From the NCBI RefSeq assembly GCF_020171845.1, contig NZ_JAIVAM010000002.1:372001-436000 (forward strand): DNA of 64,000 nt, given 5' to 3'. This document shows positions 34,434-63,511 of this stretch, piece by piece. A model generated the notes under the pieces. The model was not told the origin of the DNA and did no database searches. It was given only the letters and a program-made list of their open reading frames with translations. The position numbers were made by a program, and so were the translations under genes. Position 1 is the first letter of the stretch; the number at the start of each line of letters is the position of its first letter. The stretch comes from Cytobacillus kochii (GTDB taxonomy: Bacteria > Bacillota > Bacilli > Bacillales > Cytobacillaceae).

Positions 34434-34440
34434 TACACAA

Positions 34441-37814: not shown

Positions 37815-37818
37815 TTGC

Positions 37819-39651: not shown

Positions 39652-39669
39652 AAGAAAAGGGGTGAGAAG

Positions 39670-42666: not shown

Positions 42667-42695
42667 GTTAATACAGTGATGAATCACATAATAAA

Positions 42696-42720
42696 AAAGG
42701 ACCCTGCGTTTGGGTCCTTT
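42696..42720. terminator. Bidirectional terminator between hsdR and parR
   Basis: AAAGGACCC and GGGTCCTTT stem between A and T runs, in a convergent gap. Confidence 0.85.
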
Positions 42721-42736
42721 ATGTTTGTGTGAAGAA

Positions 42737-43982: not shown

Positions 43983-44068
43983 GTGAAACCACTTCCTTTG
44001 TTTATTAGATTTAACAATTTATACTATGCACCTTAATCATAAATATAAGAAAAACTCATATTAGTATA

Positions 44069-44117
44069 GTTCTAGTATGTGTGATAATTTCATAATTCTC
44101 ATAAATAATACTAGAAC
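44069..44117. promoter_or_regulatory. Candidate parC centromere / parMR operator
   Basis: GTTCTAGTAT (44069-44078) and ATACTAGAAC (44108-44117) are a perfect inverted pair across 29 bases. Further AGTAT/ATACT half-sites lie between here and parM. It sits upstream of parMR, where centromeres of this type lie. Confidence 0.6.
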
Positions 44118-44221
44118 ATGGTTGAACCTAAGAAACTATTTATTAAAGAAGCGAGGCAGTACAATAGAAGTATAAAGAAAGAAAAAATCAATACTTTATA
44201 AAGAAATGGAGTGAAAGAAAA

Positions 44222-45289: not shown

Positions 45290-45327
45290 TCTTTTGAAAT
45301 AGGTAGTGACTATCCTTGCGAAGGAAA

Positions 45328-45361
45328 ATTGCTCGTTTAACTATTTTGTTAAACGAGCAAT
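45328..45361. repeat. Perfect 14-bp inverted repeat
   Basis: ATTGCTCGTTTAAC and its complement with a 6-base loop; no T run. It may be a terminator relic or a protein site. Confidence 0.6.
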
Positions 45362-45527
45362 GTCATTGTAATTATTCCCAATAGAGGCTTAAAAAGTTAT
45401 GTATATAGTTTTGTGTTGCTTATTTAACAGTGAAATTAAGGGAGTCCGCATTCTTGTGTTTATGAAAATCTTCTTCTGTCAGCTTAACTTAGAGATATGA
45501 TTTGGGAATATTTAGACAGCTAGAATC

Positions 45528-45556
45528 TTGCCATTTTGCACATATCACTCTATAAT
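45528..45556 (+). promoter_or_regulatory. Sigma-A promoter of leader RNA
   Basis: TTGCCA, 17-base spacer, TATAAT: strong consensus promoter. Start of transcription is expected about 45563, just before the structured leader. Confidence 0.8.
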
Positions 45557-45582
45557 AAACTATTATTAATATAATCTAACTT

Positions 45583-45668
45583 AAAAATACCATTGATTAC
45601 AGTCGGAGGTACTGAGTAAAAAAAACTCGGTAGTCTCCGGTGAATATAATCAATGGTATTTTTTTTAT
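45583..45668 (+). ncRNA. Structured leader or small RNA ending in an intrinsic terminator
   Basis: AATACCATTGATTA at the left pairs with the AATCAATGGTATT at the right over a long range, enclosing a second hairpin (GGAG-TACTGAGT with ACTCGGTA-CTCC), and ends in eight T. With the promoter at 45528 it gives a transcript of about 100 bases. It lies before the gene at 45695, so it is either an attenuator for that gene or an independent small RNA. Confidence 0.7.
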
Positions 45669-45694
45669 TCCCAAAAAAGGAGGTGAGGAATTAG

Positions 45695-46078
45695 GTGACA
45701 CGTATCAGAGTTTTTATTCGATATGAAAACGGCTCATATAAACTTAAAAAAGTGCCCATTTCTATAAATGTGGGAATACAAGGGCTGTCCTTTGAAAAGG
45801 TGATAGAAAATGTGTTTGGCTATGCAGAGTGCGATGAAAAAGAAATGCCTCAATTATTGAAGGTAAAGAACACAGAATATTCGTTTGGTGATACGTGTTC
45901 TGAACTAGCTTGTTACAAAGTAAAGGATAAAAAAGATGTAGAGGACAGCAGATTATTGTTTTTTAGAAAAGCCATTCTACATAATAATCCTTTATCAGAT
46001 ATATTTCCAATTTATGTTGACCTTTTGGATAGTGATGTCGATTATCTTAAAAAATTCTGGACACATACAAAAACTTAA
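45695..46078 (+). CDS. Hypothetical protein, 127 residues
   Basis: Soluble mixed protein starting at GTG after GGAGGTGAGG. Strand-rich start (RIRVFIRYENGSYKLKKVPI) and helical end (LSDIFPIYVDLL, DVDYLKKFW). Preceded by a promoter and terminator-like leader RNA, which could attenuate it. No family recognised. The following gene is 58 bases downstream on the same strand. Confidence 0.65.
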   Translation: MTRIRVFIRYENGSYKLKKVPISINVGIQGLSFEKVIENVFGYAECDEKEMPQLLKVKNTEYSFGDTCSELACYKVKDKKDVEDSRLLFFRKAILHNNPLSDIFPIYVDLLDSDVDYLKKFWTHTKT

Positions 46079-46136
46079 AATAGTTGATAAACAAGTGGTT
46101 CATTGGATTTTATCCATTTGAGAAAGGGGAATTGAA

Positions 46137-46595
46137 ATGAAGCAAAACTACAAATGCAAATTAGCGAAATCAGTAATCATGGAGGAGCATGAAGAGGATG
46201 AAGTAAATATCCATTTTATTTTTGAATATAAAGCTGATGGTGGAAGCCTTAAATCAATAACTAATAATGTCTTAGCCCCAACATTGTTATCACCAATGGA
46301 CTTTGAGGGAATAGAATTTCTAGGAAAGGTAGATGAATCCTATGGAGTAATTGCTAATAATTATCCAGTGATTGAAGTAGTTTCTAATACTGAATTCAGA
46401 TTGGTAACTGCAGGATGTTCATTATTCGGGGATATTACTGAAAATGATTTGGAATCTTGTGGACTTGGGTCTTTGAACGATTTGGAGAATACTGATTTTG
46501 GATATGATGTCTTATTCGTTAATGATGCTCCCCTGGTTGCAAAAAAGGTTGTCATTTTCATATCAATAGATGCAATATTACCGGGAAGAAAATAG
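46137..46595 (+). CDS. Hypothetical protein, 152 residues
   Basis: Acidic soluble protein (EEHEEDEVNIHFIFEYK; AILPGRK at the end) with alternating strands and no membrane segments. AAAGGGGAA precedes ATG. Likely co-transcribed with the 127-residue gene, and the terminator at 46716 should end both. No family recognised. Confidence 0.65.
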   Translation: MKQNYKCKLAKSVIMEEHEEDEVNIHFIFEYKADGGSLKSITNNVLAPTLLSPMDFEGIEFLGKVDESYGVIANNYPVIEVVSNTEFRLVTAGCSLFGDITENDLESCGLGSLNDLENTDFGYDVLFVNDAPLVAKKVVIFISIDAILPGRK

Positions 46596-46715
46596 AAAGA
46601 AATCAAATGCAATTGGGGATTTTTTCTAAATAGAAAGGATATCGGATTATTGTCACCCTCTATTTATGTCATGTTTTATGTAAGGAATTCCACTTCTGTT
46701 AATATATAAGGTCAA

Positions 46716-46744
46716 ATGTCCTCACAGGTGTGGGGATGTTTTTT
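46716..46744 (+). terminator. Terminator after the two unknown genes
   Basis: ATGTCCTCACA pairs with TGTGGGGATGT (some G-U) and a T run follows. Confidence 0.7.
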
Positions 46745-46850
46745 AGTTCATTTATTAATGAATACTTTGCAAGATAAATCTATTAAAGTAGGTGTCACAG
46801 AAGTAAAGCAATTGGATCTGCAAATGATGAGAAAGCAAGTTAACATATCT

Positions 46851-46885
46851 AAAGGATAAGGAGACAGTTTTCTCTTTATCCTTTT
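46851..46885 (+). terminator. Second terminator
   Basis: AAAGGATAAGGAGA pairs with TCTCTTTATCCTTTT. No intact gene lies between it and the previous terminator; 46596-46957 has no other feature. Confidence 0.75.
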
Positions 46886-46957
46886 GCTCTTTATTTGCTC
46901 TGCATATAAATCAATTCATAAGTTGAAAGAATTGTTGTAATATCTAATTGAAGGGGT

Positions 46958-47818
46958 GTGAGGAATGTGGATTTCATTAAGGATCTGTCAGAAATAATGG
47001 TGCAGGCTTATAAAGAAAAAGGGATAAATCCTCCTAATGGCGATACTCATACTTTATTATCCCGGTATTTCAATTTAAAGGATAAAATAATTGTTCCTAG
47101 GATAAGAAACGTTAAAGTATCCAAAGAACTTAGAGGGAAAATATTAGAGGACGATTACAAACAATGTTTGCATCATATTAAAAACAGATTTAAGAATGGC
47201 AAAGATGTAAGTATTTTTCTAAGTAAAAAAAGTATCAAGCCTTCACAAAAAGATTTACTTTTATATAATTGGGGCATTCATCATTTGCATTTAAGTATGC
47301 CAGAAAAGGGAAAACAATTTGTAGAAAGATCAGACTATCTATTATTTCTCATGATTAACGATAATAATGCCTATTTTATAGATGTAACAAAACATAAATT
47401 ACCAGATGGAACGGAGTTTTCACAGCAAGAATTACTGCTGATAATAAAGAGAAATTGGCCTTATTTGCTCGATCCATATAAATATCAAGGTGCCTTTTCA
47501 TTAGATAGAAAAATGACAGATAAGGACTATTCAGAAATGAGAAAAGCCGGCAGCCTTTCATTAGTAGAAATTGATGGTGAAGTTTATGGATTAATTGGTG
47601 GAGGAATAACGACTGCCCGAACCAATATTAATCATACTATAAAAACAGATGGTGTTTTTCGAGTATTAAGGAATATGGAAGCTAATATCAGAGAAAACAC
47701 CAAGAATTTGTCATCTTTACTTTCACAAAATGGATTCAAGCAAATTGATTCTTCCTTCAAGTTAATTGTTGAAGATGAAATCTTTTATGTTATTAATGAG
47801 AAAAGTTTTGGAATCTAA
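46958..47818 (+). CDS. Hypothetical protein, 286 residues
   Basis: Soluble protein I do not recognise. A helical, basic N-terminal third (residues 1-95) is followed by a core with clustered histidines in WGIHHLHLS (about 108) and YFIDVTKHKL (about 143), a Pro/Trp segment NWPYLLDPY, and a Gly-rich loop YGLIGGGITTART. The His cluster and strands would suit a metal- or phosphate-handling enzyme such as an RNase or toxin, but that is a guess. GTG start at 46958 or 46967; the AAGGGG upstream fits 46967 slightly better. Alone between terminators. Confidence 0.6.
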   Translation: MRNVDFIKDLSEIMVQAYKEKGINPPNGDTHTLLSRYFNLKDKIIVPRIRNVKVSKELRGKILEDDYKQCLHHIKNRFKNGKDVSIFLSKKSIKPSQKDLLLYNWGIHHLHLSMPEKGKQFVERSDYLLFLMINDNNAYFIDVTKHKLPDGTEFSQQELLLIIKRNWPYLLDPYKYQGAFSLDRKMTDKDYSEMRKAGSLSLVEIDGEVYGLIGGGITTARTNINHTIKTDGVFRVLRNMEANIRENTKNLSSLLSQNGFKQIDSSFKLIVEDEIFYVINEKSFGI

Positions 47819-47924
47819 AAGTATTTATGATTCAATTTTTCGCTGAATTGTACTTTTGAATTTTTACTTTACAAAACCTTGGGGAGTAAAGCAGGGGAAT
47901 GTTAAGATAAGCGTTCTATTATAT

Positions 47925-47966
47925 AAAAGGCTCTTACCCTTTAATAATAAGGATAAAAGCCTTTTA
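47925..47966 (-). terminator. Terminator of the dynamin-like gene
   Basis: AAAAGGCT...TTACC and the matching GG(A)TAA...AGCCTTTT form a long hairpin. On the minus strand it ends in TATATAA/T tract right after the stop codon. Confidence 0.75.
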
Positions 47967-47969
47967 TAT

Positions 47970-50216
47970 TTATGCATGTGAGGCATCTACGGTATTACTA
48001 ATCAAATCATCTAAGAAAACAATCATCTGTTCTATATCTTGAACAAGTTTATTATACATCTTAACTTTATTAGACAAATAGGCATCATCTAAGGTATTTA
48101 TATCATTATTTAAAGATTGAATCCGTTTCCTTGCAGCTAATTTCATTTCATCGTCGGCTTTTTCGAATGCTCTTTCAGTATCTTTCCAGAATGAATTAAT
48201 CACAGTTTCATACTTCGATAATGCATTTTGTTTATTATATTCTTTTACAATCTTTTTTGAAATGCTCTTTTTCCATGTCCCCGAAGTTATTGCAAAAGTT
48301 GATAGGCTAGCAATTACTGCTAAAGCAATTCCTAAAGTCACTGGTCCACCAATGGATGCAACAGCAGAAACAGCAGCCGCAGTACCTCCAACAGAAATGC
48401 CAATAGAGGATAACAAACCTACGGATTGAGTAACTAAAATATAGCCCCCTAAATTTCCAAGTGTGGAAGCCCAAATGGCTAATCCGCCAAAGGCCGCTAG
48501 TCCTGTGAGTCCGCTGGCGAATGCATTTTTAACATCGAAAGCTATATTATTGTAGACATTCACACTATAAAAATTATTGCTTGTATTGTTAATATTATTG
48601 TTAACATTTTTAAGATAAGTATCAATTATATCCGATAGTTCTTCAGATTTTTTAACTAATACATTTTCTAATTTAGACTCTAATTCACCTGAAATATATC
48701 CTGATAGCCTTTGTAAATCTTGTTTCTTTTTAGAGTACTTATTGGTTTTAATTACTCCTAAAATGTGTTCTTCGTTTATAATCCTATTAAACCGATTTTT
48801 GTATTCACTTAAACTTTCTGATTTAAGTGCCCTGATTTTATTTAGAACTTCTTTTCTTAAAGATTCGTTTATTCTTTCTTCTTGTGGCATATTCGTAATT
48901 GTTTCTTCAAGTATTTTTACATACTCATCTCTTTTATTTAACAACATCTTATTGAAATCAATCTTGGATTGATACTCTACTCTCAATTTGGAAAAAAAAC
49001 CATTCAGTTGTTGTTGAAAGTTCTTAATAACTATACTAGGAATATTTTCTAATAACCTTTTTAAATCAATCTCCAATTCATCTCGTAAGACATGCTTGTC
49101 TGTCGCAAAGGTAAAAAATCTCCCACGTAAAATATCAAGAGAATATTCATAACCAGAGATATTTTGTTTCTTTTCCCATATGTCAGGGTTGATATCTGTA
49201 TACAATCTATTGGCACCCTCATCAAGTACCGTTTTAAGTGAAACTAAATTTCCTTGGTCAACTGCCATTGCTTGAGATGCAACAACATAGAAATTTCCTA
49301 GTGGAGAGATAATATTGTTATCTTTTCTTTCTAACGGTTCTAAAATATTCAATGTGTTCCGTACAAACTGGAGTTCTTCTCCACGTAAAAAGGCATTAGA
49401 AGGTGATAAATAAATGACAATATCAGCAATTTTTTGAGTTGAATTAGCCATTGTGTTATCAAGGGTGCGATCTCCTGTACCAAATCCAGGTACATCAATA
49501 AGGTCGCATACTTTGAGAATCTCTTTATCTAAATAGGTAATTATCAGGAGATTTTTATCTTCTTCATAATACATACCTTTTCGAGTGCAAAATTCTTTAA
49601 GTAGGTCTAAGTTGCCAGAAGATACTTTATGTTTTTCATAATACTCAGGGTCTGTCAAATTTTCAATTAATATTGAGTTATTTTCGTTGTCTAGTATTAT
49701 TACGTCTTCTTTTAGATATTCCGGACGATCTGACACATGCTTTATATGTACGTTTGTTGATGTTGCAGGTGTCCAATATGCAGGGAGTTCATTAGATCCT
49801 AATAGTGAATTAATGAAAGTACTTTTACCGGCATCTGACATTCCTAATACGGCAATTTTAGGTTTGGCTGGGTTATAAATTTTCTTGAAATTATCACATA
49901 CTTCATTTATTGGGCCTGCATTCTTGTCATTAATTAAACTGAGTAACTTATCGTTAACAAGATTTTTAAATTCCTCTACCTTTTCCCATTTGTTTAGGAC
50001 TGAGAATGTATTAGGTAACTTTTTACTGTACCCGGTTAGTTCTTCAAGAGTCTGTCCCGTCACTTGGGCAAGTTTTATTATCATGTCTAATTCTATTTTC
50101 CCGGGTTCATTTTCCATTCTTACAACTTTATCCCTACTAACTTCTAGCATAGTTGCTAATTCAGCTTGTGATTTACCTAAAATGTCTTGTCTAAAATTTT
50201 TTAAATCTAATGCCAT
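47970..50216 (-). CDS. XRE-dynamin-like GTPase fusion protein
   Basis: 748 residues. The N-terminus is a Cro/CI helix-turn-helix (KSQAELATMLEVSRDKVVRM, residues 15-34). A dynamin-type GTPase follows: P-loop GMSDAGKS (125-132), switch I TPATST (149-154), DVPGFG (241-246). A long helical stalk and two or more membrane-active hydrophobic segments (about 560-640, GLAAFGGLAIWASTL ... TLGIALAVIASLS) follow, then a charged helical tail. Bacterial dynamins remodel membranes and some act against phages. Fusing one to a DNA-binding domain is unusual. The ATG at 50216 is chosen because AAGGGG lies 9 bases before it; the frame back to 50348 is not used. AT-rich like its neighbours. Confidence 0.8.
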   Translation of the reverse strand: MALDLKNFRQDILGKSQAELATMLEVSRDKVVRMENEPGKIELDMIIKLAQVTGQTLEELTGYSKKLPNTFSVLNKWEKVEEFKNLVNDKLLSLINDKNAGPINEVCDNFKKIYNPAKPKIAVLGMSDAGKSTFINSLLGSNELPAYWTPATSTNVHIKHVSDRPEYLKEDVIILDNENNSILIENLTDPEYYEKHKVSSGNLDLLKEFCTRKGMYYEEDKNLLIITYLDKEILKVCDLIDVPGFGTGDRTLDNTMANSTQKIADIVIYLSPSNAFLRGEELQFVRNTLNILEPLERKDNNIISPLGNFYVVASQAMAVDQGNLVSLKTVLDEGANRLYTDINPDIWEKKQNISGYEYSLDILRGRFFTFATDKHVLRDELEIDLKRLLENIPSIVIKNFQQQLNGFFSKLRVEYQSKIDFNKMLLNKRDEYVKILEETITNMPQEERINESLRKEVLNKIRALKSESLSEYKNRFNRIINEEHILGVIKTNKYSKKKQDLQRLSGYISGELESKLENVLVKKSEELSDIIDTYLKNVNNNINNTSNNFYSVNVYNNIAFDVKNAFASGLTGLAAFGGLAIWASTLGNLGGYILVTQSVGLLSSIGISVGGTAAAVSAVASIGGPVTLGIALAVIASLSTFAITSGTWKKSISKKIVKEYNKQNALSKYETVINSFWKDTERAFEKADDEMKLAARKRIQSLNNDINTLDDAYLSNKVKMYNKLVQDIEQMIVFLDDLISNTVDASHA

Positions 50217-50733
50217 ATTTTTCATCCCCTTGAATAAATTTTCTTTATAAATATATAATATCATGTTCAAAGGTGTAAAACAACTAAAAATTATATATAA
50301 GTGTGTGAAATTCGCACATTTATTATTAGGTTGTTCATTTGACTTCACATTGATCTACTGAATATGGAATTCCATTTATCAAATTATTGTCAAGGTTTTG
50401 GGTGAATTTTATGTGTTTACAAAATTATCCGATATAAATAGAAGTAGTTGATTTAAACTTTGTTAGAAGCACGTGGATATTAAGGAGACGAACTACATGG
50501 AGATTTTAGAGATTTATATGAAAGAATAAAGAGGTTTGTTTTTGACCATGCATTTGGTTTGGTTTCAGACGTTTAACGATTAAATAAGATTTGAATCTTA
50601 CAAAAGCCAGGGGAGTAAAGAGAGGAATGCCGCAATATCAGCATTCCTCTCTTTACATATTTACTACATCGAAGTGAACCTTACATAATCTTTGGTGAGA
50701 ACGGATAGTGTAATATTCATATACAGATCGTTG
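50217..50733. other. Intergenic region with long hairpin
   Basis: No gene seen. It contains the hairpin at 50615-50656 and, upstream of the dynamin-like gene, probably its promoter. The 47881-47910 region carries a similar GGGGAGTAAAG stretch. Confidence 0.4.
50615..50656. repeat. Perfect 16-bp hairpin
   Basis: GTAAAGAGAGGAATGC and its exact complement with a 10-base loop. It lies downstream of the TerB_N gene's stop (minus strand) and may be its terminator, though only a short T tract is present. Confidence 0.65.
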
Positions 50734-52263
50734 TTAAGTCTCTAATTTCTTTTGAAGTCTATCAATTCTTTTTTCAAATTCAGACGTTTCCATTCCTTGA
50801 TTATTATAATAGGTGATTGCTTGTTTTGAGATCTTGATTGCATAATTATATTCTTTTCTTTTTTCGTAGATTATTGCTAACCGACTAAAGGCTGGAATTC
50901 TTCCTCGAAATTTCTCTTTTTTAATTCTTTGTATGTCTTTATCTAAATCCTCATTTGAATAAAATGAACCAAGTTTTTTATGACGATCTATTTCTTGGTT
51001 AACATAGACTTTATTTAATTCATCGAGTATCTCAATATCCTCGTAACAATATCTGATGCATGCTTCTAGGTACTCAGGATCCAAATCCCTGTATTTATAA
51101 TAAAAATCTTGAAGTTGAATATAAATGAAATGCTTTGTGACTAAGTCATTATAATTACTCTTTAATTCACCTAATAAGTCGCTTTCCTTAGTAGCATCGA
51201 ACTTTATTTTTTGCGGGGGCTTTTTTGTCTCTTTTTTCTTTAGGACAACTTTATTTTTTCTCATTTCAGCTAAATGCTTTTTAACTGATTCATGTGTGTT
51301 AACAAGTAAATCATTCATAACCTTCCATAATTCGTTCGATGAAATCATATCAGGTACTATGACTACTTCGTCCATCAATGAAATATTTGCAAAAAGTCTC
51401 ATTTCTGTTTTTGGAAGTGTTTGGATCCTAGGAGTAATGTCTTTAAGAATTATATTTTTAGTTGTATATTTATCGAAGATCAATTTTTCCATAGTTTGTT
51501 CAAATACGTCTGGATATCCTTTTATATAATTGGTGTTAGTGAAACCGAATGTTTTTGCAAGCCTCATAATGTCTTTGGCTAGTAAGGGTACATCAAAACT
51601 ATGCAATGCAAACAAATATAGATTATCTGAAAAACCTCTTTTATAGTCTTGATTTAAAGATTCTATGAAAACTTGCATCATATCAGCTCGTTGATGAAGT
51701 AAACAAGATAGGACAATTGCATTCCCAGAATAAGATTGAAACGAGCTGTTTTTGTGAATTTCTCTTAACTTAATAACTGTTTTAACAGCATTTTCAAAAT
51801 CATGCGTGAATAGATGCCGTTCTAATCCGTAATAAAGAATGAATACATAACTTATATCCCTTTGACAGTGATAAGGATTTGAGAGGAATTGCCAATATTT
51901 GTATTTTTGTTCAGGACTAAGGCTCTTGTAATTAGGGTAGTAAGGTGGTGAAGGTACTTCTTCTGAACTTAGAGGTTCTTTTATCTCCTGTTGCATGTCA
52001 ATAAGACTAGGTTCTTCTCCACCGCTAAGCGAAAGTGTGACAACAATGCCACCAAATTTATAGGTTTCCTTTTGGCCTTTATCAGGAACAAAATTCCTTT
52101 TCGCACCATTTTCAATCCAGATTAAATTCTTTATATCAGCATGAATAGAGAAATAATCGGTGGGATGGCTCAATTGATTAGATTTCGTAGGAACTAATCT
52201 ATTTCCATTTGACTCTCTTATTTTTGGCTTTTTGTTTTTCTTAAAGATATCAAATAATCCCAT
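50734..52263 (-). CDS. TerB_N-domain protein
   Basis: 509 residues. After a basic N-terminal leader (MGLFDIFKKNKKPKIRES) and a small strand domain, the TerB N-terminal domain is visible at about 135-170 (LSPEQKYKYWQFLSNPYHCQ then a VFILYYGLERHL block). Helical repeat-like regions follow, ending with TPR-like helices (SRLAIIYEKRKEYNYAIKIS). TerB_N proteins occur with tellurite/stress and phage-defence genes. The ATG at 52263 is chosen for the AAAGGTG upstream; the longer frame to 52341 is unlikely. It neighbours the XRE-dynamin gene on the same strand, 0.5 kb away. Confidence 0.75.
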   Translation of the reverse strand: MGLFDIFKKNKKPKIRESNGNRLVPTKSNQLSHPTDYFSIHADIKNLIWIENGAKRNFVPDKGQKETYKFGGIVVTLSLSGGEEPSLIDMQQEIKEPLSSEEVPSPPYYPNYKSLSPEQKYKYWQFLSNPYHCQRDISYVFILYYGLERHLFTHDFENAVKTVIKLREIHKNSSFQSYSGNAIVLSCLLHQRADMMQVFIESLNQDYKRGFSDNLYLFALHSFDVPLLAKDIMRLAKTFGFTNTNYIKGYPDVFEQTMEKLIFDKYTTKNIILKDITPRIQTLPKTEMRLFANISLMDEVVIVPDMISSNELWKVMNDLLVNTHESVKKHLAEMRKNKVVLKKKETKKPPQKIKFDATKESDLLGELKSNYNDLVTKHFIYIQLQDFYYKYRDLDPEYLEACIRYCYEDIEILDELNKVYVNQEIDRHKKLGSFYSNEDLDKDIQRIKKEKFRGRIPAFSRLAIIYEKRKEYNYAIKISKQAITYYNNQGMETSEFEKRIDRLQKKLET

Positions 52264-52435
52264 CAATATAACACCTTTCCATAAAATATAAATTATAAGT
52301 GTTGTATTTATCTTATCATAAAACCCTAGGATAAATTGCAAAATAAGTTAAAGAACCTATTTTGCCTCCAGGCTCTTGAGGTTTCTTCATTCACCGTATA
52401 GAATGTTTTTGTAAGGTAATATAGGAGGTGAAACA

Positions 52436-53005
52436 TTGAAAGTAGTTCAGCCAATAAGAGATTTGAAACAACTTGAAGCTGTAAAAGGATATCTACGTGG
52501 GAAAAATAAAAGGGATTATTTACTCTTTATGGTAGGAATATCATCAGCTTTAAGAATAAGTGATATTTTAACACTAAAGGTAAAACATGTTTGGAATGGG
52601 AAAAAAGCTAATGAATTTATAGAAATAAATGAAAAGAAAACTGGAAAATACAAAAGGTTCCCTATAACAAAGAACCTTACAAAAGCTATCAATGAATACA
52701 TGAAAGAGTATTTTAATAAAAATCAGGATGATTACCTTTTTACAAGTAGAAAGGGAATAAATCAACCGATTTCAAGGCAATATGCAGCATCCATGCTAAA
52801 TATTGCTTGTGACATGGTGGGTATTAATGAAAGATTTTCTACACACGGAATGAGAAAAACTTGGGGATACTGGGCATTTCAAAAAGGTATATCGCTCGAT
52901 TATATATGTATAGCTCTAAATCATAGTTCTGTAGCAGAAACAAAAAGATACCTTGGGATATTACAAGAGGATCTCGACAATCTATACCTAGAGGTGAACT
53001 TATAA
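52436..53005 (+). CDS. Small tyrosine recombinase (catalytic domain only)
   Basis: 189 residues, lacking the usual N-terminal arm- or core-binding domain. Catalytic residues visible: Arg in SSALRISDILTL, HxxR in THGMRKTW, His in LNHSS and the nucleophile Tyr in KRYLGI. Such short recombinases act as resolvases or inversion enzymes (FimB-like) or plasmid dimer resolvases. It is directly upstream of the tns operon in the same direction, with a terminator between. It could resolve cointegrates made by the transposon, or be an independent plasmid resolvase. TTG start after GGAGGTG. Confidence 0.85.
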   Translation: MKVVQPIRDLKQLEAVKGYLRGKNKRDYLLFMVGISSALRISDILTLKVKHVWNGKKANEFIEINEKKTGKYKRFPITKNLTKAINEYMKEYFNKNQDDYLFTSRKGINQPISRQYAASMLNIACDMVGINERFSTHGMRKTWGYWAFQKGISLDYICIALNHSSVAETKRYLGILQEDLDNLYLEVNL

Positions 53006-53042
53006 AAGTGTTCAAACTACATTTAATAAAAGATAAAGTATT

Positions 53043-53097
53043 TGACTATTGATAATCAGTTCAAAAAAAAACGAACTCGATTGCCAATAGTCATTTT
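53043..53097 (+). terminator. Long hairpin between recombinase and tnsA
   Basis: TGACTATTG and CAATAGTCA outer stem, GTTC/GAAC inner stem, then TTTTTAT. It may also mark a site with repeated TGACTATTG half-sites. Confidence 0.7.
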
Positions 53098-53124
53098 TAT
53101 TTTCAAATAAACAGGAGGGATTTT

Positions 53125-53922
53125 ATGGGTGCAAATAATTGGTCAAAGGAAAAACTAAATAGGTATCTAAAAGAAGGGAGAGGTCAGGGAGTTGGAAAAG
53201 ATTATCTTCCATGGAACTATACCTACAATTACAGTTCCAAAGGTAGAGTTTCCAGAATTTCCGGACTTAAAACCAGACGTATACATCACCTTCATTCTGA
53301 TAATCAATATAGAGCTTTTCTATTATTCGAATTTAATTCAAATGTTGCTGACATAAGAGAATCTTTCCCACTATTAGATGTCGAAGAAGTAATTGATGAT
53401 AAAGAGGATTTGCGGTTTGATAAGTTCATTGATAGAGAGACTAAAGAACCCTATGTGTTAACCACAAACTTTTTGCTAACTGTTAAAGACGTTAATGGTG
53501 AGCAGAAGGGACTGGCAAGAACCGTAAAAAATACAACAGAACTCAAAAGGAAAATAACTTTTGAAAAGCTGGAGATTGAAAGAAGATATTGGAACCAAAA
53601 GGGAATTGATTGGAAAGTAATGACGGAAAAACAACTACCTAGACAATTAGCCAAAAATATTGAATGGGTAAGGGAAACATTGTTGGAATGGAGTGAGGGG
53701 GAGCTGAATAAAAGTGAGCAATCGATATTGATGCTTAGATTTCTTTTAGAAAACGATGAACTTCCTTTAAGAGAGGCCTTAAAATTATTTGAACAGACAG
53801 AAGGATTGAAAAAGGGGGCGGGTTTGTTCCTTTTTCGCTATTTGATAGCAAAGAAGGAGCTTGCAGTTGATATGACAAAAAGAATAGATTTATTATCAAA
53901 AGTTAAAGACTTGCTTCTATAA
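53125..53922 (+). CDS. tnsA: Tn7-like transposase subunit TnsA with catalytic substitutions
   Basis: 265 residues, close to Tn7 TnsA length, with a clear N-terminal match (EGRGQGVGKDYLPW, then TRRIHHLHSD). TnsA makes the 5' cuts in Tn7; its known active-site residues are Glu63, Asp114 and Lys132. Here the matching positions read SDNQ (Gln61 where Tn7 has the Glu of SDLE), TTN (Asn115 where Tn7 has the Asp of STDF) and TVK (Lys135 kept). Two isosteric losses in an otherwise intact protein predict no 5' cleavage while structure and partner contacts remain. First gene of the tns operon; tnsB begins at 53934, 11 bases after its stop. Confidence 0.9.
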   Translation: MGANNWSKEKLNRYLKEGRGQGVGKDYLPWNYTYNYSSKGRVSRISGLKTRRIHHLHSDNQYRAFLLFEFNSNVADIRESFPLLDVEEVIDDKEDLRFDKFIDRETKEPYVLTTNFLLTVKDVNGEQKGLARTVKNTTELKRKITFEKLEIERRYWNQKGIDWKVMTEKQLPRQLAKNIEWVRETLLEWSEGELNKSEQSILMLRFLLENDELPLREALKLFEQTEGLKKGAGLFLFRYLIAKKELAVDMTKRIDLLSKVKDLLL

Positions 53923-53933
53923 GGTGGTTGATT

Positions 53934-56081
53934 TTGTTGGAGTTTAACGAGAATTTGTTACTACGATATCATGATGGGAAAACAATACGGATTGTGTATT
54001 GTGATAGGATTTCTACTATTATATATGCAATTGATATGGATAAAGTTAGGTGGCCATTTCTCATTAGAGAAGATGAATTAATTTCTGATTATAATAACGA
54101 AGAAATAACTATTTTAGAAAATGACCCATACACACGTTATGTTGTTGAAGAAGAACTAAGCAATGCAGAGAAGGAAAGAAGGGGGAAAGCGTGGGAAATA
54201 GTGAAATTTGTACTTGAACAAGTAGATACAGAGGTTTTGATATTCAAAAGCAGGTATCGAGAAAAAGCCATTAAACTAGCAGTAGCACAATATAAAATCA
54301 ATTATTCAACCGTAAAAAGTTACCTTGTACGGTATTGGAAAGGTGGTAAGATTCGAAATGGATTACTTCCTGCATTTAACTTATGTGGCTCTATAGGTAA
54401 GGAAAGAAAAAATGGTGACAAAAAGCGGGGAAGACCTAGAAAATCTGGAAGTAAACAAGGGATAAATATTGATGACAAAATTAAGAGATATTTCCAAACA
54501 GGTTTAAATCGCTATTACTATAGTGGTAGGCAGAACTCGCTAAAAGTGACTTATGAACTGATATTAAAGGATTTTTTCACAGAAACGAAGGTTGATATAA
54601 ATGGTAATAAAGTCCCCGTTATTAAGGAGCCTTCAAGTATTCCTACCTACCATCAATTCTTTTATTGGTTTAAGAAGTTAAATAATCCAAAAAAGGAATT
54701 AATTAATAGAAAAGGAGCAAGAAACTATTTCCAAAATCATCGTACTATCATTGGAAATTCAACACAAGATGCTGGATTAGGTCCAGGAACACTTTGGCAA
54801 ATAGACTCTACACAGTTTGATATTTATCTGGTTTCATCCATAGATCGTAACTTGATTGTTGGCAGACCAACTTTAGTATGCGTAATTGATGTATTTTCCA
54901 GGATGATAGTTGGGGTTAATGTCACTTTTGAGTCATTTAATTCGTACACAGGCACTATGGTTGCTCTTGCAAATAGCATGTTACCCAAGAGTGAATTTTG
55001 TAAACAGTTTGGTATCACACTGGATAAAGATGAGTGGGATGTGGCTTGTGTGCCGCAAAGGATTTTTGCTGACAGGGGTGAATTAAACGGTAAACAGATT
55101 GAAGATGCTATTGGAGGATTAGGTATTTCGATACAGAATGCCCCTCCGTACAGAGCTGACTACAAAGGAATTATTGAACAGGCATTTGCACAATTAAACA
55201 TAAAGGTTAAACCATTTGCTGATGGGGTTGTAAAGAATGGGAAGAACACACTAAAGAGGGGAGACGAAGATTATAGACTTAAAGCTAATCTGACAATAGA
55301 CGAATTCACACGAATTGTTATCAAATGTGTGCTATTCCATAACAATCATCATGTCTTGAGTGAATATGTATTGGATGAAATGATGATTAGTGAAGAAGTT
55401 GAAAAAATACCCGTTAAGATATGGGAATACGGTGTGAACGATATGAAAGGGCAATTACGAGTATTACCTGAACAAACAGTAAAGATGCACTTACTTCCGA
55501 CTGATATAGGAACCATTACTTCACGGGGGGTTAGATTTAAGAAGATGTTGTACGCTTCGGATTACTCATTGAAAAATAATTGGTTTCAGACAGCAAGAAT
55601 TAATGGTAGCAAAAAAGTAAAGATTTGGTATGATCCGAGGGACCTTTCATATGTTTATACAATTAATGAGGATGGGGAGTTTCACAAGTTGAATCTACTT
55701 GAACATTTGACTAAGTATGAAAATAAAGGAATTGATGAAATAAAACAGATAATAAAGCATGAACAAACTATGGATAACAAAAGTAAGGAACAAGAATTGC
55801 AGGAAAAGATGAAGTTGTATGACGATATTCAAACAATTGTTGGACAAGGAAAAAGGAATACAGAAGCAGAAAAAGATGATTATTTAAGCAAAACCCAACG
55901 TTTGAGAGGTATAAGGGAGAACCAACGGGAAGAAAGGGAACTACAACGGGAATTGAATATACAGAAGGTAGAGGCAGGGGAAACATTGATGGAATCAGTT
56001 GAAAAACAGGGATATACAGAGGATGAACTTGATTTGTTTAGAGCTATACAAGAGCTAGATTGGGATGATGATATTGAGTAA
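53934..56081 (+). CDS. tnsB: Tn7-like DDE transposase TnsB
   Basis: 715 residues. It binds transposon ends and makes 3' cuts and strand transfer. An N-terminal DNA-binding region includes an AT-hook-like KRGRPRK. The RNase-H core has the triad in order: QIDST (Asp291), ADRGE (Asp380) and KGIIEQ (Glu415), with the D-35-E spacing. The C-terminal part is charged (ENQREERELQ). All catalytic residues are present, in contrast to TnsA. TTG start: several in-frame TTG follow AAGGTGG; 53934 fits the spacing. The end overlaps tnsC by 17 bases. Confidence 0.93.
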   Translation: MLEFNENLLLRYHDGKTIRIVYCDRISTIIYAIDMDKVRWPFLIREDELISDYNNEEITILENDPYTRYVVEEELSNAEKERRGKAWEIVKFVLEQVDTEVLIFKSRYREKAIKLAVAQYKINYSTVKSYLVRYWKGGKIRNGLLPAFNLCGSIGKERKNGDKKRGRPRKSGSKQGINIDDKIKRYFQTGLNRYYYSGRQNSLKVTYELILKDFFTETKVDINGNKVPVIKEPSSIPTYHQFFYWFKKLNNPKKELINRKGARNYFQNHRTIIGNSTQDAGLGPGTLWQIDSTQFDIYLVSSIDRNLIVGRPTLVCVIDVFSRMIVGVNVTFESFNSYTGTMVALANSMLPKSEFCKQFGITLDKDEWDVACVPQRIFADRGELNGKQIEDAIGGLGISIQNAPPYRADYKGIIEQAFAQLNIKVKPFADGVVKNGKNTLKRGDEDYRLKANLTIDEFTRIVIKCVLFHNNHHVLSEYVLDEMMISEEVEKIPVKIWEYGVNDMKGQLRVLPEQTVKMHLLPTDIGTITSRGVRFKKMLYASDYSLKNNWFQTARINGSKKVKIWYDPRDLSYVYTINEDGEFHKLNLLEHLTKYENKGIDEIKQIIKHEQTMDNKSKEQELQEKMKLYDDIQTIVGQGKRNTEAEKDDYLSKTQRLRGIRENQREERELQRELNIQKVEAGETLMESVEKQGYTEDELDLFRAIQELDWDDDIE

Positions 56082-57555
56082 CTCTATATTTCTACCAAAT
56101 GGAATGGAGGCTATTCAGGCAGAGTATAAGGAATTCCCGTTGGAAGAGTTTAATCAAAACCCGTTGATTCAAGCACTACCACCATTATTGGATAAAGCAA
56201 CAATCATTAGAAAGCTCATGGTTAAACCAATCTATAATGATGAAGAAAAACATGCTGAAAGTATTTATCGAATACACATGATAAACCGATTGTTTCAGCT
56301 ATATACTCCTCTTCCGGTGCACATAGATGTGTGGAATATGATTCATACATTGATTCTGCAAGGTTATTTGGCTAGGAACCCTTTTGATAAGAACTATAAA
56401 AAGTATATTAATGACTCTGGAAAAGAAATTATTAATCGTTCATATGAAATAAATAGTAGACAAAATTTCAGAACCACTTCTTCTTGCGGGACATTTATCG
56501 GTTTTTCTGGCATGGGTAAGACAACAACAATTAATAGAGTTCTAAGCGATATTCCACAAGTGATTATTCATAATGAGTATAAAGGAATCCATTTCAACCA
56601 AATCCAACTTGTATGGTTGAAGTTGGAAGCACCAAGTAATTCAAGTCTGAAAGCATTGTGCTTACAATTTTTCATGAAGGTCGATGAATTGCTAGGAACT
56701 AATAATTATAAGAAATATGTTTCGAGAAATATGTCTGTAGACAGTATGTTACCTTTAATCAGTCAGGTTGCACACAATATAGGACTCGGTCTCCTTGTAA
56801 TTGATGAAACACAAAATATAAAAAAACGGGGTGCTGAGCAAATCATGAACTTCTTTGTCTACTTGATAAATACAGGAATTAATCTTTGTTTAATTGGAAC
56901 CCCAGGAGCATATGATTTATTTGGTAAGGAATTGCGTATGACGAGACGTTTAACTGGAAACGCTGAAATCATTTATAACAATATGCAATATGGAAATGAA
57001 TTTACCCTTTTGCTAGAGTCTGTATGGAAATATCAATGGACTCGAAATTTTGTCCCCTACAATGAAGAGTTCGGAAAGGTAATTTATGAAGAAACTCAAG
57101 GTATATCGGATTTGGTTATAAAACTATTTGTATACTCGCAACAACAGGCTATAGAAAATGGAAAAGAAGAGCTTTCCATTGATCTAATAAAGAAAGTAGC
57201 AAAGGAAAAGTTTAGATTACTTCAACCGATGTTAAATGCCATTCGTTCGGGGAACCCTCATAAAATAGCAAAATATGAAGATATTAGGAAGATTGAGTTA
57301 GAAGAGTCGGATATAAGGAAAAGTAAAGAATTGAAAAAAGAAGAACCAGTAAAAAAGAAGAAGGAAGATAAGGTAAAAGCAACCGAAAACATTGAGGAAC
57401 CTAAGAAGAAAGGAAAGCGTAAGGAATATAAGGAAGATGATTTACGCTATTTACTTCAGCGGGGAAATGAAGAAGAAAAGTCACCATATCAAGTACTCCT
57501 AGAAAAGGAGTTTATTGAGGATACTTCAAAATGGATTGAGGTGGAGGGAATATGA
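56065..57555 (+). CDS. tnsC: Tn7-like AAA+ regulator TnsC
   Basis: 496 residues. AAA+ ATPase that links target proteins to the transposase. Walker A GFSGMGKT (146-153), Walker B LVIDETQ (Asp247-Glu248), sensor region LIGTPGAYDLFG. The C-terminus ends in a strongly charged Lys/Glu tail (KKKEDKVKATENIEEPKKKG) where Tn7 TnsC contacts TnsA/B. Overlaps tnsB at its start and tnsD by 4 bases (ATGA). Confidence 0.92.
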   Translation: MMILSNSIFLPNGMEAIQAEYKEFPLEEFNQNPLIQALPPLLDKATIIRKLMVKPIYNDEEKHAESIYRIHMINRLFQLYTPLPVHIDVWNMIHTLILQGYLARNPFDKNYKKYINDSGKEIINRSYEINSRQNFRTTSSCGTFIGFSGMGKTTTINRVLSDIPQVIIHNEYKGIHFNQIQLVWLKLEAPSNSSLKALCLQFFMKVDELLGTNNYKKYVSRNMSVDSMLPLISQVAHNIGLGLLVIDETQNIKKRGAEQIMNFFVYLINTGINLCLIGTPGAYDLFGKELRMTRRLTGNAEIIYNNMQYGNEFTLLLESVWKYQWTRNFVPYNEEFGKVIYEETQGISDLVIKLFVYSQQQAIENGKEELSIDLIKKVAKEKFRLLQPMLNAIRSGNPHKIAKYEDIRKIELEESDIRKSKELKKEEPVKKKKEDKVKATENIEEPKKKGKRKEYKEDDLRYLLQRGNEEEKSPYQVLLEKEFIEDTSKWIEVEGI

Positions 57556-59072
57556 TCAATTTCCTTCCACAATTGTATGATAACGAGCTATTTTATTCAG
57601 TTATTGCACGTTATAGGAGAATGTGTGGAATGGTTAGTGGGAGGGCGTTTATAAGGGATTTATTTGGTGAATTTGTTGTTATCACATCGTCCAATTTTCC
57701 ACAGTATATACGAAACTTTATTGGAAACCTTCCTCCAACTTCAAAAGTAACAACCAAGGAGATTATTGAAAAGCATACTCTATTTAATTTTTATACATCA
57801 TTTCTCAACGAGGAAAAAGCGGATCACATATACGAAACGATGGGAAAAGGTTCAAATGGATCAAGATTAAATGTTGAACAGCAAATTGGATTTGGTGGAA
57901 GCAAAGTTCGTAAACCAAGTTATTTAAGGTATTGCCCGTTGTGTTTTAAAGAAGACATTGATACATTAGGCGAGAGTTATTGGCGTATTAATCACCAGAT
58001 AATCGGAGCATATTATTGTTCTAAACATCATGTCCTTTTAAAGGAAAGCTCTGTATTAAGTACTGGAAATGGAATTGAATTTATATGTGCAGATGAACAG
58101 ATCTGTAACGAAGAACTATTAGAAGATAATTATTCGGACACGATTAAATTATTAAATCTTGAATACATACATAATGCCGAATTAATATTGAACAGAAACT
58201 TTTCAAGGAAGGATTTGAACTATATTATTGATTTCTATATTGATAGATTAAGGGAGAAAAGGTTAGCCTCCAAGAATGGAAACCTTTATATGAAGGATGT
58301 TCAAGAACGATTTTTGCATTTCTACCCTAAACAGTACTTAGAATTAATGCAGAGCAGCATTAATCCTGATAGTCCGTCTAATTGGCTTCGATTATTTGTT
58401 AGACATAATAAAGGGAATAGAAGTCCTGTGAGGCATTTGTTATTCTTACAATTTCTTAGCATTGATCCACCTGATTTATTATTAAGTGAAAAAGTTGTGG
58501 GTAAGAAAAAGGATTCAATTGTTCATAATCCAAGTTTTGATCTTAATCAAAGGAGAGAAAAGTGGTTAAAATTGATAACTGAAAATCCTGGTGCCAACAG
58601 AAGTCAATTAAAGGATAAGGGGAAAGGTCTACATACGTGGGTATACAAGTACGATTGGGATTGGTATGACAAAGTAACCCCAAAGGCACAATTAGGGAAA
58701 GAAAAGGCTGGAACCATTGATTGGGAGAAGAGGGATGAAGAATGTTTGAGTCTTGCTATGGAGGCTGTTGAATTTATTCTCCAGAGAAAAGGTAAACCGA
58801 TAAGGGTAACACCTTCGAGTATAAGAAATATTTTAGGGTTTGGCCCGTGGTTTCACAATGTAAAGCTAGTAGGAACGCAACGATATTTGCACGAAGTGAA
58901 AGAGGATATAAATGATTTTAGGATTAGAAAGATTAAGTGGGCACTAAATGAAATGGTATATAAGGGTGATAGAATAACTCCATATAAAGTCCAGCTTTAT
59001 GCAGGATTTGGTGGGAGTAATAAAGAAGTGAGAAAACTAATTCTGAAAGAATTAGTTTGGATAAAAAAGTAA
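57552..59072 (+). CDS. tnsD: TnsD/TniQ-family target selector
   Basis: 506 residues, the size of Tn7 TnsD rather than short TniQ. The N-terminal TniQ domain (LPQLYDNELFYSVIARYRRM) carries a zinc site (Cys128, Cys131, Cys156, His159: CPLC...CSKH). The mid block SNWLRLFVRHNKGNRS and the C-terminal block DWEKRDEE...DFRIRKIKWALNE match the domains used to bind a fixed DNA site. It should direct insertion to one chromosomal or plasmid attachment site, not identifiable here. No tnsE is visible before the window ends. Last gene of the operon, followed by a terminator. Confidence 0.9.
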   Translation: MINFLPQLYDNELFYSVIARYRRMCGMVSGRAFIRDLFGEFVVITSSNFPQYIRNFIGNLPPTSKVTTKEIIEKHTLFNFYTSFLNEEKADHIYETMGKGSNGSRLNVEQQIGFGGSKVRKPSYLRYCPLCFKEDIDTLGESYWRINHQIIGAYYCSKHHVLLKESSVLSTGNGIEFICADEQICNEELLEDNYSDTIKLLNLEYIHNAELILNRNFSRKDLNYIIDFYIDRLREKRLASKNGNLYMKDVQERFLHFYPKQYLELMQSSINPDSPSNWLRLFVRHNKGNRSPVRHLLFLQFLSIDPPDLLLSEKVVGKKKDSIVHNPSFDLNQRREKWLKLITENPGANRSQLKDKGKGLHTWVYKYDWDWYDKVTPKAQLGKEKAGTIDWEKRDEECLSLAMEAVEFILQRKGKPIRVTPSSIRNILGFGPWFHNVKLVGTQRYLHEVKEDINDFRIRKIKWALNEMVYKGDRITPYKVQLYAGFGGSNKEVRKLILKELVWIKK

Positions 59073-59099
59073 GCTACTGGTAAAAACAGTGGCTTTTTA
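59071..59099 (+). terminator. Terminator of the tns operon
   Basis: AAGCTACTG pairs with CAGTGGCTT, then TTTT; it overlaps the tnsD stop. Confidence 0.85.
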
Positions 59100-59248
59100 T
59101 TCTATTTTAAGATTTCTAATATTGGTTACCTTATAATGTTCATATATACTAGCCTTATATTCTAGTAAGATATTGATATGAGATTGTTCGGCTTTTTATC
59201 TTTTATCTGCAGCAATAACGCAGATTATCTTATTAAGGAGGCATTTTT

Positions 59249-62200
59249 TTGATTAAAATTAACTGGGATTATTTTAAGGTGAAAAATAAAGATTATACAA
59301 CTGACTTTGAGTTGTTGTGCTACCATATTTTTTGTAGAAGATATGGTCAAACAGATGGTATAATTGCAGACTTTAATCAGGTGGGTCTTGAAACAATGCC
59401 CTGGCTATCTGGTAAAAAATACTATGGATTCCAAGCAAAGTTTTTTGACAAAGTAAATTATAGCAGTATAAAGAAATCAATTGATAAAGCACTTAAAACA
59501 TTTACTGCTGATAATGGAAACCAATTAGATCATATTATTATTTTCTTGAATTGTAATATCCAAGTTAGTAGTAAGAGTGCTAAGCAAATAGTAGAAAAAT
59601 GCGAAAAAAAAGGGGTTACAGTTGAGTGGTTTGTTACAAATCATTTCGAATCAGTTCTTAATCAACCTAAGAACTTGGATTTGGCTCAACTTTTTTTTGG
59701 TGAAGCCGACGAACTAGGATTTATTTTAGATAGCAAGAATATTAGATTAAATACTCTTCTTTTATCGAAGGAATATATAGAATTAGAGCTATTAGGGGAT
59801 GAGAAAAGAAAATCAATCACGGATTACTCTAAAGAAATTCTAAGCAGTAAAAATAAAATACACTTATTATCAGGAAGTCCTGGTTCTGGGAAAAGTGTAT
59901 GTATGAATAAATTATTTCAACTATACACAGGTACTGAAAAAAGTAGTAATGCGGAACAATTAGCAGTTATAGAGGAAATAGAGGCTTTAACGATGTACGT
60001 AAATTTGAATACTGTTTCCCTAGATAATTTAGAAAACATAATACATAATCGACGGAGTGAATATGGAATAAGAAATCAAAATACAAAGGTTATCTACTTG
60101 TTTGATGGTTTAGACGAAGTATCAGATCTTAGGATAGACACAACATTATCATATATCTTTGAACTGGCTGATAAAGTATCAACTAAATTAATAGTTATTT
60201 CATCAAGAATAGCAAGTCCCAATAAAATCAAATTGAAAATAGGCTATAAAAATATAGTTGAACATCAAATAGTTGAATTATCAAAGAAACAAATACAAAG
60301 TTATTTTTTAAGTAAAGGAGTAAGAAAAAAACAGGAACTACTAAATAACCTTGAAAAATCTAATCCGACGTTTTTTGAAAATATTCAAGACACATTAACA
60401 TTGTCAATATTATGGAAGCAAATTGAAAAAATCAACAGAGATAGTTATATAACCGATTTGATAGAGATTCATGTTAATGAGACTTTAAATGATATTTCTC
60501 ATTCAAAATATCTAAATGAATTAAATATACCAAACCCCAAGATAGCGTCTATTATAGAACTGAATAAGCAAATATCTTTATATAGTTTTGAACATCAAAT
60601 TGTAAGTATTAAATACGAGGAAATTTATTCACTACTTTTAGATTTATTACCAAGATGTGACTATCAAGCGATTAATAGAATAATTGATTTTTTGGCAGAG
60701 AATTACTTTGATGTCTATGGGACTAACACAGTCCAATCATATACCTATAAGCATAGGAGATATTCAGAATACTTTCTAATGCTTAGTATTGTTGAAAAAA
60801 TGGAGATAGATAGTAAATTTATCCGTGAAAAACATTTGCTTACTAATATGGACTTTTTCTATAAAATGTTAATTCCATATTTGAAAAATAAAGCCATTAC
60901 AACAAATGACATAGCTCTAACTCAAAGTTTGGGATTATATGATGTTTATTTAGGAAACAACAGAAATTGGGGGGCTGATGAACCTTATTATAAATGGTCA
61001 GACTACTTAACGTACGCATTAACGAGCCAGAAAAATGACATTTTTGAGATCATTATAAATGATGATAATCTTGTTTTTAAAGATTATCTTTTGGAGTTAC
61101 CAAATGAGATTATAGAAAAATTACAAAGTTTAGCAATGAAAGATCGATCCAAAGATACAGAAATAGATTACTTATTGAAAATATTTTTTAGAAGTTTAGT
61201 AGAGCTCTATAAACATAATAAAAAAGAAACTGTAAAACTTTTCCTTGTGAAATATGAACAAATAATGGAATTACTTGTAGATGTAAAATATATTAATAAC
61301 TACACAGAAGAAAAAGCTACAAATGAATTTTGGAGAAACAAGTTTTATATTGATATAGTTATTAGACAAAAAAACGTATCTGAATATAAAGAAATGGTTA
61401 CTGAACATAAACTTGATTTGTCAGCAGAGGAATTTATGGAAGATTATACACCAACTAAGTTAACTGTTATGAAATCATTAACATATATTTTAACTATGGA
61501 ACGTCCTAATGAATTTGTATCATTTATAAAAGACTTTAACGAATACCAGTTGGGAGCCTATCTAATTTCAATTTGCGAACTTGATTGTTTAGCCTCAATT
61601 CACCAATTTCCAGTATTAAAAAGTGAAATTTTAAAGAGAATTAGTTCTTTAAATCCATCTGAAGGGTTACATCAAGCCTTAATATATGGGTTTAAAAAAT
61701 ATTCTGGTGAAATTTTAACTGATGAGGAAACAGAATGTATAGAAAAATATATAACTAAATTAGGGAGAATAGAAACTTCTGTATTTTGGAAAAACCACCA
61801 TAATGTAATTGCATTTTTGTCATTGCCAGATAAAAATAATAAAAGAATGCAAATTAAATTATACAGTAGCATAATGACATATAATAAGTTTTATGAAATG
61901 TATGTCTTATTATTAGATGGAACGTGCTCTTTAGCTAAAATAGTAAAATTATTCTCTACTTCTACTATTCTAAAAAAATCAACTGTAGGATTCTATGTTC
62001 GTTTACTACTTGGTTATGCGTTTGTGTTTACTGGGGAGAATATAAAAACAGTAAAAGGTAGTATTAATTACCTAAACCATAAAGAAATAGAAAATATGCA
62101 AATGGTGTACTTCCAAATAAAGAAAGCTGATGGTGAGAAATATAGGGAATTATTTAGTGCCGATGAGTTACTAAGGCTAACGTCGGAAGTGAATTATAAG

Positions 62201-63370: not shown

Positions 63371-63511
63371 CTTTTCTTTTTTGTTTTTTTTTCTATGTAA
63401 TCAAAATAAACATTTCCAATTTCAGAACTAGATTCAATGTTTTTTCGTCTTGTTCAATTAATGTTTATTTTATTGAGTGTCTTTAGAATCAAGTTTATAA
63501 GGGTGGCATAA

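Follow-up and report, generated by a model that had tools for sequence, protein, structure and literature searches.

Tn7-like elements that keep a TnsA with replaced acidic active-site residues carry their tns genes outside the transposon ends and probably integrate as replicative cointegrates

The stretch of DNA analysed here, referred to as the window, comprises 64,000 nucleotides of the Cytobacillus kochii contig NZ_JAIVAM010000002.1 and carries a Tn7-like operon in which tnsA, tnsB, tnsC and tniQ/tnsD are adjacent and stand in the same order as in relatives (Table 1). In Tn7, the catalytic residues of the TnsA endonuclease are Glu63, Asp114 and Lys132. The first-pass annotation of the window had read Gln61, Asn115 and Lys135 at these positions, and this reading is borne out by alignment to the solved Tn7 TnsA (1f1z; E 1.2e-35), in which SDLE of Tn7 pairs with SDNQ and STDF with TTNF, both motifs being internally free of gaps, and the lysine motif VK is retained. 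The same placement holds in an alignment with 23 proteins, and the two codons are those that had been claimed. In place of the triad of a canonical cut-and-paste TnsAB, the window protein thus has Gln, Asn and Lys, and judged by these residues it is probably catalytically dead and structurally retained. TnsB was said to keep its DDE residues, and the triad is indeed intact, although the residues are D293, D382 and E417 when counted from position 53928, the earlier numbers 291, 380 and 415 being two too low. The three positions are D, D and E in all TnsBs aligned, both in the 37 encoded beside a TnsA that lacks the Asp and in the 22 encoded beside a Glu/Asp TnsA.

Table 1. Features of the window and of the element that contains it (window numbering)
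Feature	Position	Strand	Evidence or remark
Whole window, backbone and cargo of the 69,035-bp element	1..64000	.	S1 and S2 lie outside the window
S1, 338 bp	-3181 to -2844 (contig C2:368819-369156)		S1/S2 repeat comparison
Actin-like protein (ALP_N), backbone	43008..43982	-	profile match
Short tyrosine site-specific recombinase	52436..53005	+	profile match
Strong hairpin (A-rich loop) in the gap from the recombinase gene to tnsA	53043..53093	+	-19.6 kcal/mol, z -6.5
tnsA, endonuclease subunit	53125..53922	+	intact ORF, 265 aa; Pfam Tn7_TnsA-like_N and Tn7_Tnp_TnsA_C
Codon CAA, Gln61 (Tn7 Glu63)	53305..53307	+	alignment to Tn7 TnsA
Codon AAC, Asn115 (Tn7 Asp114)	53467..53469	+	alignment to Tn7 TnsA
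tnsB, DDE transposase, D293/D382/E417 present	53928..56081	+	profile match, alignment
tnsC, AAA+ regulator	56065..57555	+	AAA_22, TniB
tniQ/tnsD target selector	57552..59072	+	profile match
S2, 338 bp	65516-65853 (contig C2:437516-437853)		S1/S2 repeat comparison

The replaced residues are shared by relatives. In an initial homologue set, Gln was present in all nine proteins covering the first site, and the second site was Asn in seven and Ser in two; taken alone this set is biased, because one of the six search peptides held the SDNQ motif. Unseeded searches covered the family (193 genomes, E<1e-3), the order (397 genomes, E<1e-60) and the class (398 genomes, E<1e-30), and at most 30 loci were taken per search. 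Together with four plasmid loci, after removal of five partial TnsA entries (two distinct places) and merging of copies, these yielded 68 distinct TnsAs, which are the best-scoring matches of the family, order and class searches and lie near the query, so that the share without Asp is inflated. Glu and Asp are both present in 25 of the 68, all with the Lys, and 43 are without the Asp (22 Gln/Asn, 9 Gln/Ser, 3 Gln/Thr, 8 Glu/Thr and 1 Glu/Ser). In a TnsA tree from which the three trait columns had been removed, 42 of these 43 form one clade with an SH-aLRT of 99, hereafter the Asp-less clade, and the TnsB tree agrees, with two trait changes over the 63 usable rows of the 68, one of them for the stray protein L055; both trees were made in 'quick' mode, with SH-aLRT as the sole support measure. 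A search of the phylum gave 11 further TnsAs, of which three more were without Asp and grouped with the clade in a tree that kept the trait columns. The clade is found in Bacillaceae and Paenibacillaceae, and three of its members come from outside the class. Given that Glu/Thr and Glu/Ser members exist, the Asp appears to have been lost first in the clade and the Glu afterwards. L055 (genome G112), the lone such TnsA outside the clade, has Glu/Ser and an Arg for the Lys and sits on a long branch among the Glu/Asp rows; it is perhaps an independent loss.

The dN/dS of tnsA was 0.066-0.127 (8 of 10 pairs computable) and that of tnsB was similar, 0.075-0.118 (three pairs), and a value near 0.1 for tnsA indicates that the protein is kept under selection. 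Relatives with intact genes sharing the acidic loss, which the first-pass annotation had proposed to look for, therefore exist as a clade of 42 with low dN/dS, and a sequencing error, which it had named as a counter-explanation, is ruled out by Gln in nine of nine relatives covering the site and by the 42 clade members among 68 distinct TnsAs from unseeded genome searches. The same data contradict the idea, to which we give next to no weight, that TnsA is merely decaying along with an element that is itself dying out. The catalytic residues are lost and some TnsA matches of the family carry stops or truncations, but the state is conserved across the clade, tnsA is as constrained as tnsB, tnsABC and tniQ are intact in the window, and the identical segment copies described below suggest recent activity.

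The ends of the element lie outside the window. Two identical direct copies of one segment, S1 beginning about 3 kb before the window start and S2 lying 1.5 kb past its end, flank the window, so that the window forms the interior of an element of 69,035 bp. ATATA stands at the outer side of both copies as a 5-bp target duplication, their inner flanks are CTACTA/TAGTAG, and the element ends carry repeated, putative TnsB-like sites. The TGT...ACA unit is S alone, with the tns genes between the two S copies and outside S, so that the window element is not a Tn7-like element with tns between its ends. Indeed, classical inverted ends around tns were searched for in the window clade and none were found, because the ends of this clade do not enclose tns. 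The left flank of the element is the 3' end of rlmD (23S rRNA uracil methyltransferase; TIGR00479, E 1.3e-177), and G063, a genome of the same genus, has an uninterrupted rlmD locus without the element; the junction sequence there has drifted, and the five bases of the duplication differ. The window's genome has another rlmD-like gene, named by eye from its translation, at which tandem solo S copies occur with a repeated GGTAT as their own duplication, two of them 90% and 77% identical to the window S, plus a fragment. Two other candidates were rejected. The tyrosine recombinase gene upstream of tnsA is not the host attachment gene, since recombinases of unrelated kinds are found at this position and the element's outer flank, roughly 56 kb distant, is rlmD, and the repeats at about 65.5 kb are no IS21-like remnant, being S2, identical to the far-side S1.

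The same layout recurs in other Asp-less elements. Of the 42 loci, 29 were examined for S; 15 of the 29 are well covered (at least 9 kb upstream and at least 19 kb downstream of tnsA) and the other 14 too short to judge. S1/S2 direct repeats are present in 10 of the 15 well-covered elements and were not found in the other five (G165, G039, G690, G853 and G764), among which G690 and G853 have long direct repeats without TGT...ACA ends. Four of the ten cases come from single-contig assemblies (G061, G622, G708 and G811), some of the other genomes being drafts. Besides the 338 bp of the window, S measures 608 bp in G708, about 330 in G101, 474 in G221, 499 in G811, 2197 in G007, 2805 in G449, about 460 in G622, 1334 in G061 and about 4.2 kb, with a run of N, in G041. 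The two copies are 100% identical in eight of the ten elements and 98.7-98.8% identical in G221 and G101. Perfect outer 5-bp duplications were found in eight (ATATA, CTTTG, AAAAT, CTGGT, ATAAT, GCAAT, TGTGT and GGATG), of which CTGGT belongs to G061, AAAAT to G041 and TGTGT to G622, a member of the window's own group; in G708 both S copies are present and the outer 5-mers differ (AGTGG/GCTAA), and G101 has only a shifted AAAG. Outer flanks are variable and inner flanks constant: in nine of the ten elements S1 is followed by TAG and S2 is preceded by CTA; in G811, a Glu/Thr member, S starts with TTT instead of TGT and the inner flanks differ. CTA/TAG makes up a short inverted repeat on the backbone side that is kept despite different recombinases and targets.

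By eye, we take the outer flanks to be rlmD-like in G622, G101, G708 and G221, glmS, in or near it, in G007, G449, G041 and G061, and rlmB-like in G811. In the glmS group the clusters of TnsB-like sites face the other way, bounding S beside the tns genes, and a pair of identical S copies in direct orientation flanks tns and the cargo. A third copy in G061, S3, is a solo S with its own duplication, ATTCA. The S of G007 (L047 10480-12690) carries a ynfA-like gene, and S is therefore not always empty.

For comparison, 11 Glu/Asp regions were scanned over 9.5-20 kb upstream and 40-50 kb downstream of tnsA, and S1/S2-type repeats were found in none of them. Ends were tried in four of the 11. Classical TGT...ACA ends around tns could be drawn in three of the four, with the right end 150-220 bp before tnsA and the duplications ACTAC, CTTGG and TTAAT; in the fourth, G616, no duplication was found. 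These three controls are canonical Tn7-like elements, which keep Glu and Asp and have tns between their ends, whereas the ends of the Asp-less clade enclose S only. Two direct repeats span tnsA in the 11 regions, both without TGT...ACA ends: one of 315 bp at 88% in G717, where it involves a second tnsA copy, and one of 105 bp at 88% in G029. At the Glu/Asp locus L226 (G029:C15), an outward-oriented, end-like cluster lies 0.8 kb before tnsA and a gene for a serine recombinase lies 4.7 kb upstream; this may be an exception or a neighbouring element.

A recombinase gene directly upstream of tnsA and on the same strand accompanies 29 of the 42 Asp-less loci versus none of the 25 Glu/Asp loci, a count made with profiles trained on Asp-less loci and with short upstream sequence at one Glu/Asp locus (136 bp) and at two recombinase-less Asp-less loci (219 and 303 bp). 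Where the window has a short tyrosine recombinase, a long tyrosine recombinase or a serine resolvase is found in relatives. With short tyrosine, long tyrosine, serine and 'none' each counted as a kind, the TnsB tree requires at least 13 changes of kind over its 41 Asp-less rows. Ten of the 13 Asp-less loci without an upstream recombinase are the glmS group, and in all five that were followed further a tyrosine recombinase lies downstream of tns, 11-31 kb after the tnsA start. In G622 a serine recombinase is encoded 2 kb upstream on the opposite strand, and none was found in G764 and G811. Scans of 14 genomes, 11 of them with Glu/Asp regions, with Pfam PF00589 and PF00239 placed, among the matches listed, only the G029 gene within 30 kb of a Glu/Asp tnsA, the next nearest listed recombinase being 33 kb upstream in G205, outside the drawn ends. 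Similarity of S to the stretch before the recombinase gene was seen in none of the four cases tested against mononucleotide shuffles, and we therefore make no claim that the recombinase acts on S; its job may be the handling of circle dimers or resolution.

In a textbook cointegrate, donor DNA is flanked by two direct copies of the transposing unit and the target duplication stands only on the outside, and it is this form that the S copies take around the backbone, with perfect duplications in eight of ten elements, the window included. We therefore consider, with a probability of roughly three in four, that the clade consists of Tn7-like elements keeping a catalytically dead TnsA, in which a circle of S plus backbone integrates as a replicative cointegrate. 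The mobile form would be a circle made of S, a short segment with the TnsB ends TGT...ACA, and a backbone that carries tnsABC, tniQ, cargo and, in most cases, a recombinase. The attachment site would be selected by TniQ, the rlmD 3' end here and glmS or an rlmB-like gene in relatives; TnsB would cut the 3' ends of S and join them to the target 5 bp apart; and TnsA would leave the 5' ends uncut, so that the backbone remains attached. Replication through S would then give the cointegrate target-S-backbone-S-target, from which recombination between the S copies would release the circle and leave a solo S. We think it likely, with somewhat less assurance, that this amounts to an integrate-and-excise cycle like that of a phage or ICE but run by a DDE transposase, with ends that enclose only a scar-like S and genes that lie outside, deliberate entry as a cointegrate, and excision leaving solo scars at rlmD and glmS. 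An active TnsA would cut out S alone and strand tns, so that loss of catalysis goes with the layout; the loss of TnsA catalysis and the position of tns outside the ends each explain the other. Tn7 TnsA cuts three bases outside the transposon ends, which is where the CTA/TAG flanks lie, and as a matter of speculation the dead TnsA may still hold these constant flanks. The first-pass proposal that a dead TnsA leads to replicative cointegrates stands as far as the acidic pair is gone, relatives share this state and the chromosomal structure fits a cointegrate; the inactivity of the enzyme, the circle, the replication and the release by recombination of S1 with S2 are what we infer.

It is very unlikely, in our judgement, that TnsA is still a nuclease with a rearranged site and that the element cuts and pastes. 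The D85 position is acidic in 90% of the Asp-less clade versus 8% of the Glu/Asp proteins, and D85 could be a displaced acid filling the metal site; moreover, Lys135 is kept in 41 of 42 clade members and selection is strong. A predicted structure model of TnsA (mean pLDDT 53.7, pTM 0.40) was too poor for placing D85. Yet the position of Asp114 is Asn, Ser or Thr in all 42 members, cut-and-paste of S would abandon the tns genes, and S1-backbone-S2 within one target duplication is not a cut-and-paste product.

The main rival to cointegrate integration, an outside chance in our estimation, is entry of the circle by a RecA single crossover into a solo S already present at the attachment site, inside an old target duplication. 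Such an event would give an identical end structure, solo S copies do exist, S is long enough for homologous recombination, and the unmatched outer 5-mers of G708 would also be consistent with recombination between two distinct copies of S. Against it stands the complete identity of S1 and S2 in eight of ten elements, compared with an identity to the window S of only 90% and 77% for the two longer solo copies elsewhere in that genome; besides, the first S at any site would still need transposition, and the rival does not explain why TnsA lost its active site. Less likely again is that the S1-backbone-S2 block as a whole is one replicative transposon that moves by its outer ends, like Tn5053, with the recombinase resolving at a site in the backbone and the inner ends as leftovers. 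The outer boundaries do bear ends and a duplication, and the recombinase gene is usually within the block, but co-travelling S1 and S2 should diverge, while eight of the ten pairs are identical, and there would be no reason for a full S on both sides in ten cases.

The circular form proposed in the cointegrate reading was looked for among plasmids and viral contigs. The best plasmid match for TnsA, among the best 20 of 503 matches (three of which were read), is 38.6% identical and of the Glu/Asp type. The window S matched no plasmid record, the S of G007 had six plasmid matches, only at its ynfA gene, and no relative was found in viral contigs.

The likeness to canonical Tn7 and Tn7-like elements lies in the order tnsA-tnsB-tnsC-tniQ, the several TnsB-like sites per end, the 5-bp duplication and the use of a housekeeping gene's 3' end for attachment. 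In Tn7, laboratory active-site mutants of TnsA at E63 and D114 lose catalysis and give cointegrates. These carry an engineered defect, whereas the Asp-less clade represents a natural, selected state, and the expected product common to both is the cointegrate. In the part of the Vibrio cholerae CAST study compared here, the TnsA mutation D90A gave more than 95% cointegrates (of reads), with a duplicated mini-transposon and the inserted backbone (PMC8188705). Tn5053-like elements and type V-K CAST, compared by description only and from parts of the sources (PMC11406308, PMC8649781), share a replicative route with no 5'-end cut, which is what we infer for the Asp-less clade, and Tn5053 has a resolvase, as the window element also has a site-specific recombinase; unlike those elements, which are without tnsA, the window has an intact, selected tnsA and genes outside the ends. 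According to the text compared (PMC11406308), a resolvase is usually present in elements that are without TnsA, and type V-K lacks both. The first-pass idea of an evolutionary step between Tn7 and TnsA-less elements is not supported, as the clade is diverse and has its own arrangement, with ends that exclude the tns genes.

The relevant part of another study predicted a replicative Tn7-like path from loss of tnsA and gain of a resolvase, and took the presence of tnsA as arguing against a replicative role of the resolvase (PMC8649781). The Asp-less clade breaks this rule, insofar as it can be taken from the portion compared, for tnsA is present, selected and, by its residues, apparently dead. 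BCEGI-1 of Bacillus cereus ATCC 10987 is similarly an island beside glmS, with two tnsABCD sets; compared by description only, the portion of its report considered makes no mention of active-site loss or of direct end copies (PMC2359905). Integrative plasmids and ICEs resemble the element in whole-circle integration at a gene 3' end and in excision, both of which would apply here, as well as in the actin-like segregation gene of the window backbone, but they use an integrase at a short att site, whereas here a DDE transposase would act and the duplicated segment is 0.33-2.8 kb long (about 4.2 kb, across a gap, in G041). No conjugation gene was found among the window proteins scanned, a subset of the ORFs. 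Further literature was compared in part (PMC10293859, PMC3401170, PMC13228271), and in the portions of the open-licence PubMed Central literature compared, no report of natural TnsA active-site loss or of tns outside the ends was recognised. The clade would be a natural counterpart of the TnsA-dead laboratory systems and raises the question of TnsA roles beyond cutting. It also leads to the prediction that some Bacillota island boundaries are misdrawn, the true unit extending beyond the TnsB ends.

Several smaller features accompany the element. Hairpins similar to the one between the recombinase gene and tnsA (Table 1) were seen by eye before tnsA in several relatives with different recombinases, and none is present in L005 and L008, in which only 40-60 bp separate the end of a long tyrosine recombinase gene from tnsA; could the window hairpin be a terminator or attenuator? 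The actin-like protein of the backbone hints at a plasmid-like state. At 16044-16678 of the window, a pair of short ORFs that overlap, of which the first encodes a TnsD domain (E 1.6e-27), is a remnant of another Tn7-like element within the backbone. The same genome has a second Tn7-like locus, L061 (G000:C16:10578-10787), directly before a tnsB, where the TnsA match spans residues 11-79 only and SDLE is kept. Defence cargo is dense at 34441-42666, 46958-50348 and 59249-63370 of the window, as well as at 11513-13051 of L121, and includes type I restriction-modification genes with a HEC-06/Orf5-like gene, a PD-T4-7-like gene, a dynamin/LeoBC-like GTPase, a large protein with an Avs4-like N terminus and a TPR/HEPN protein. 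Finally, the stretch 2418-12917 encodes two P-type ATPase-like proteins and a CsoR-like regulator, read from translations alone, and is possibly cargo for metal resistance.
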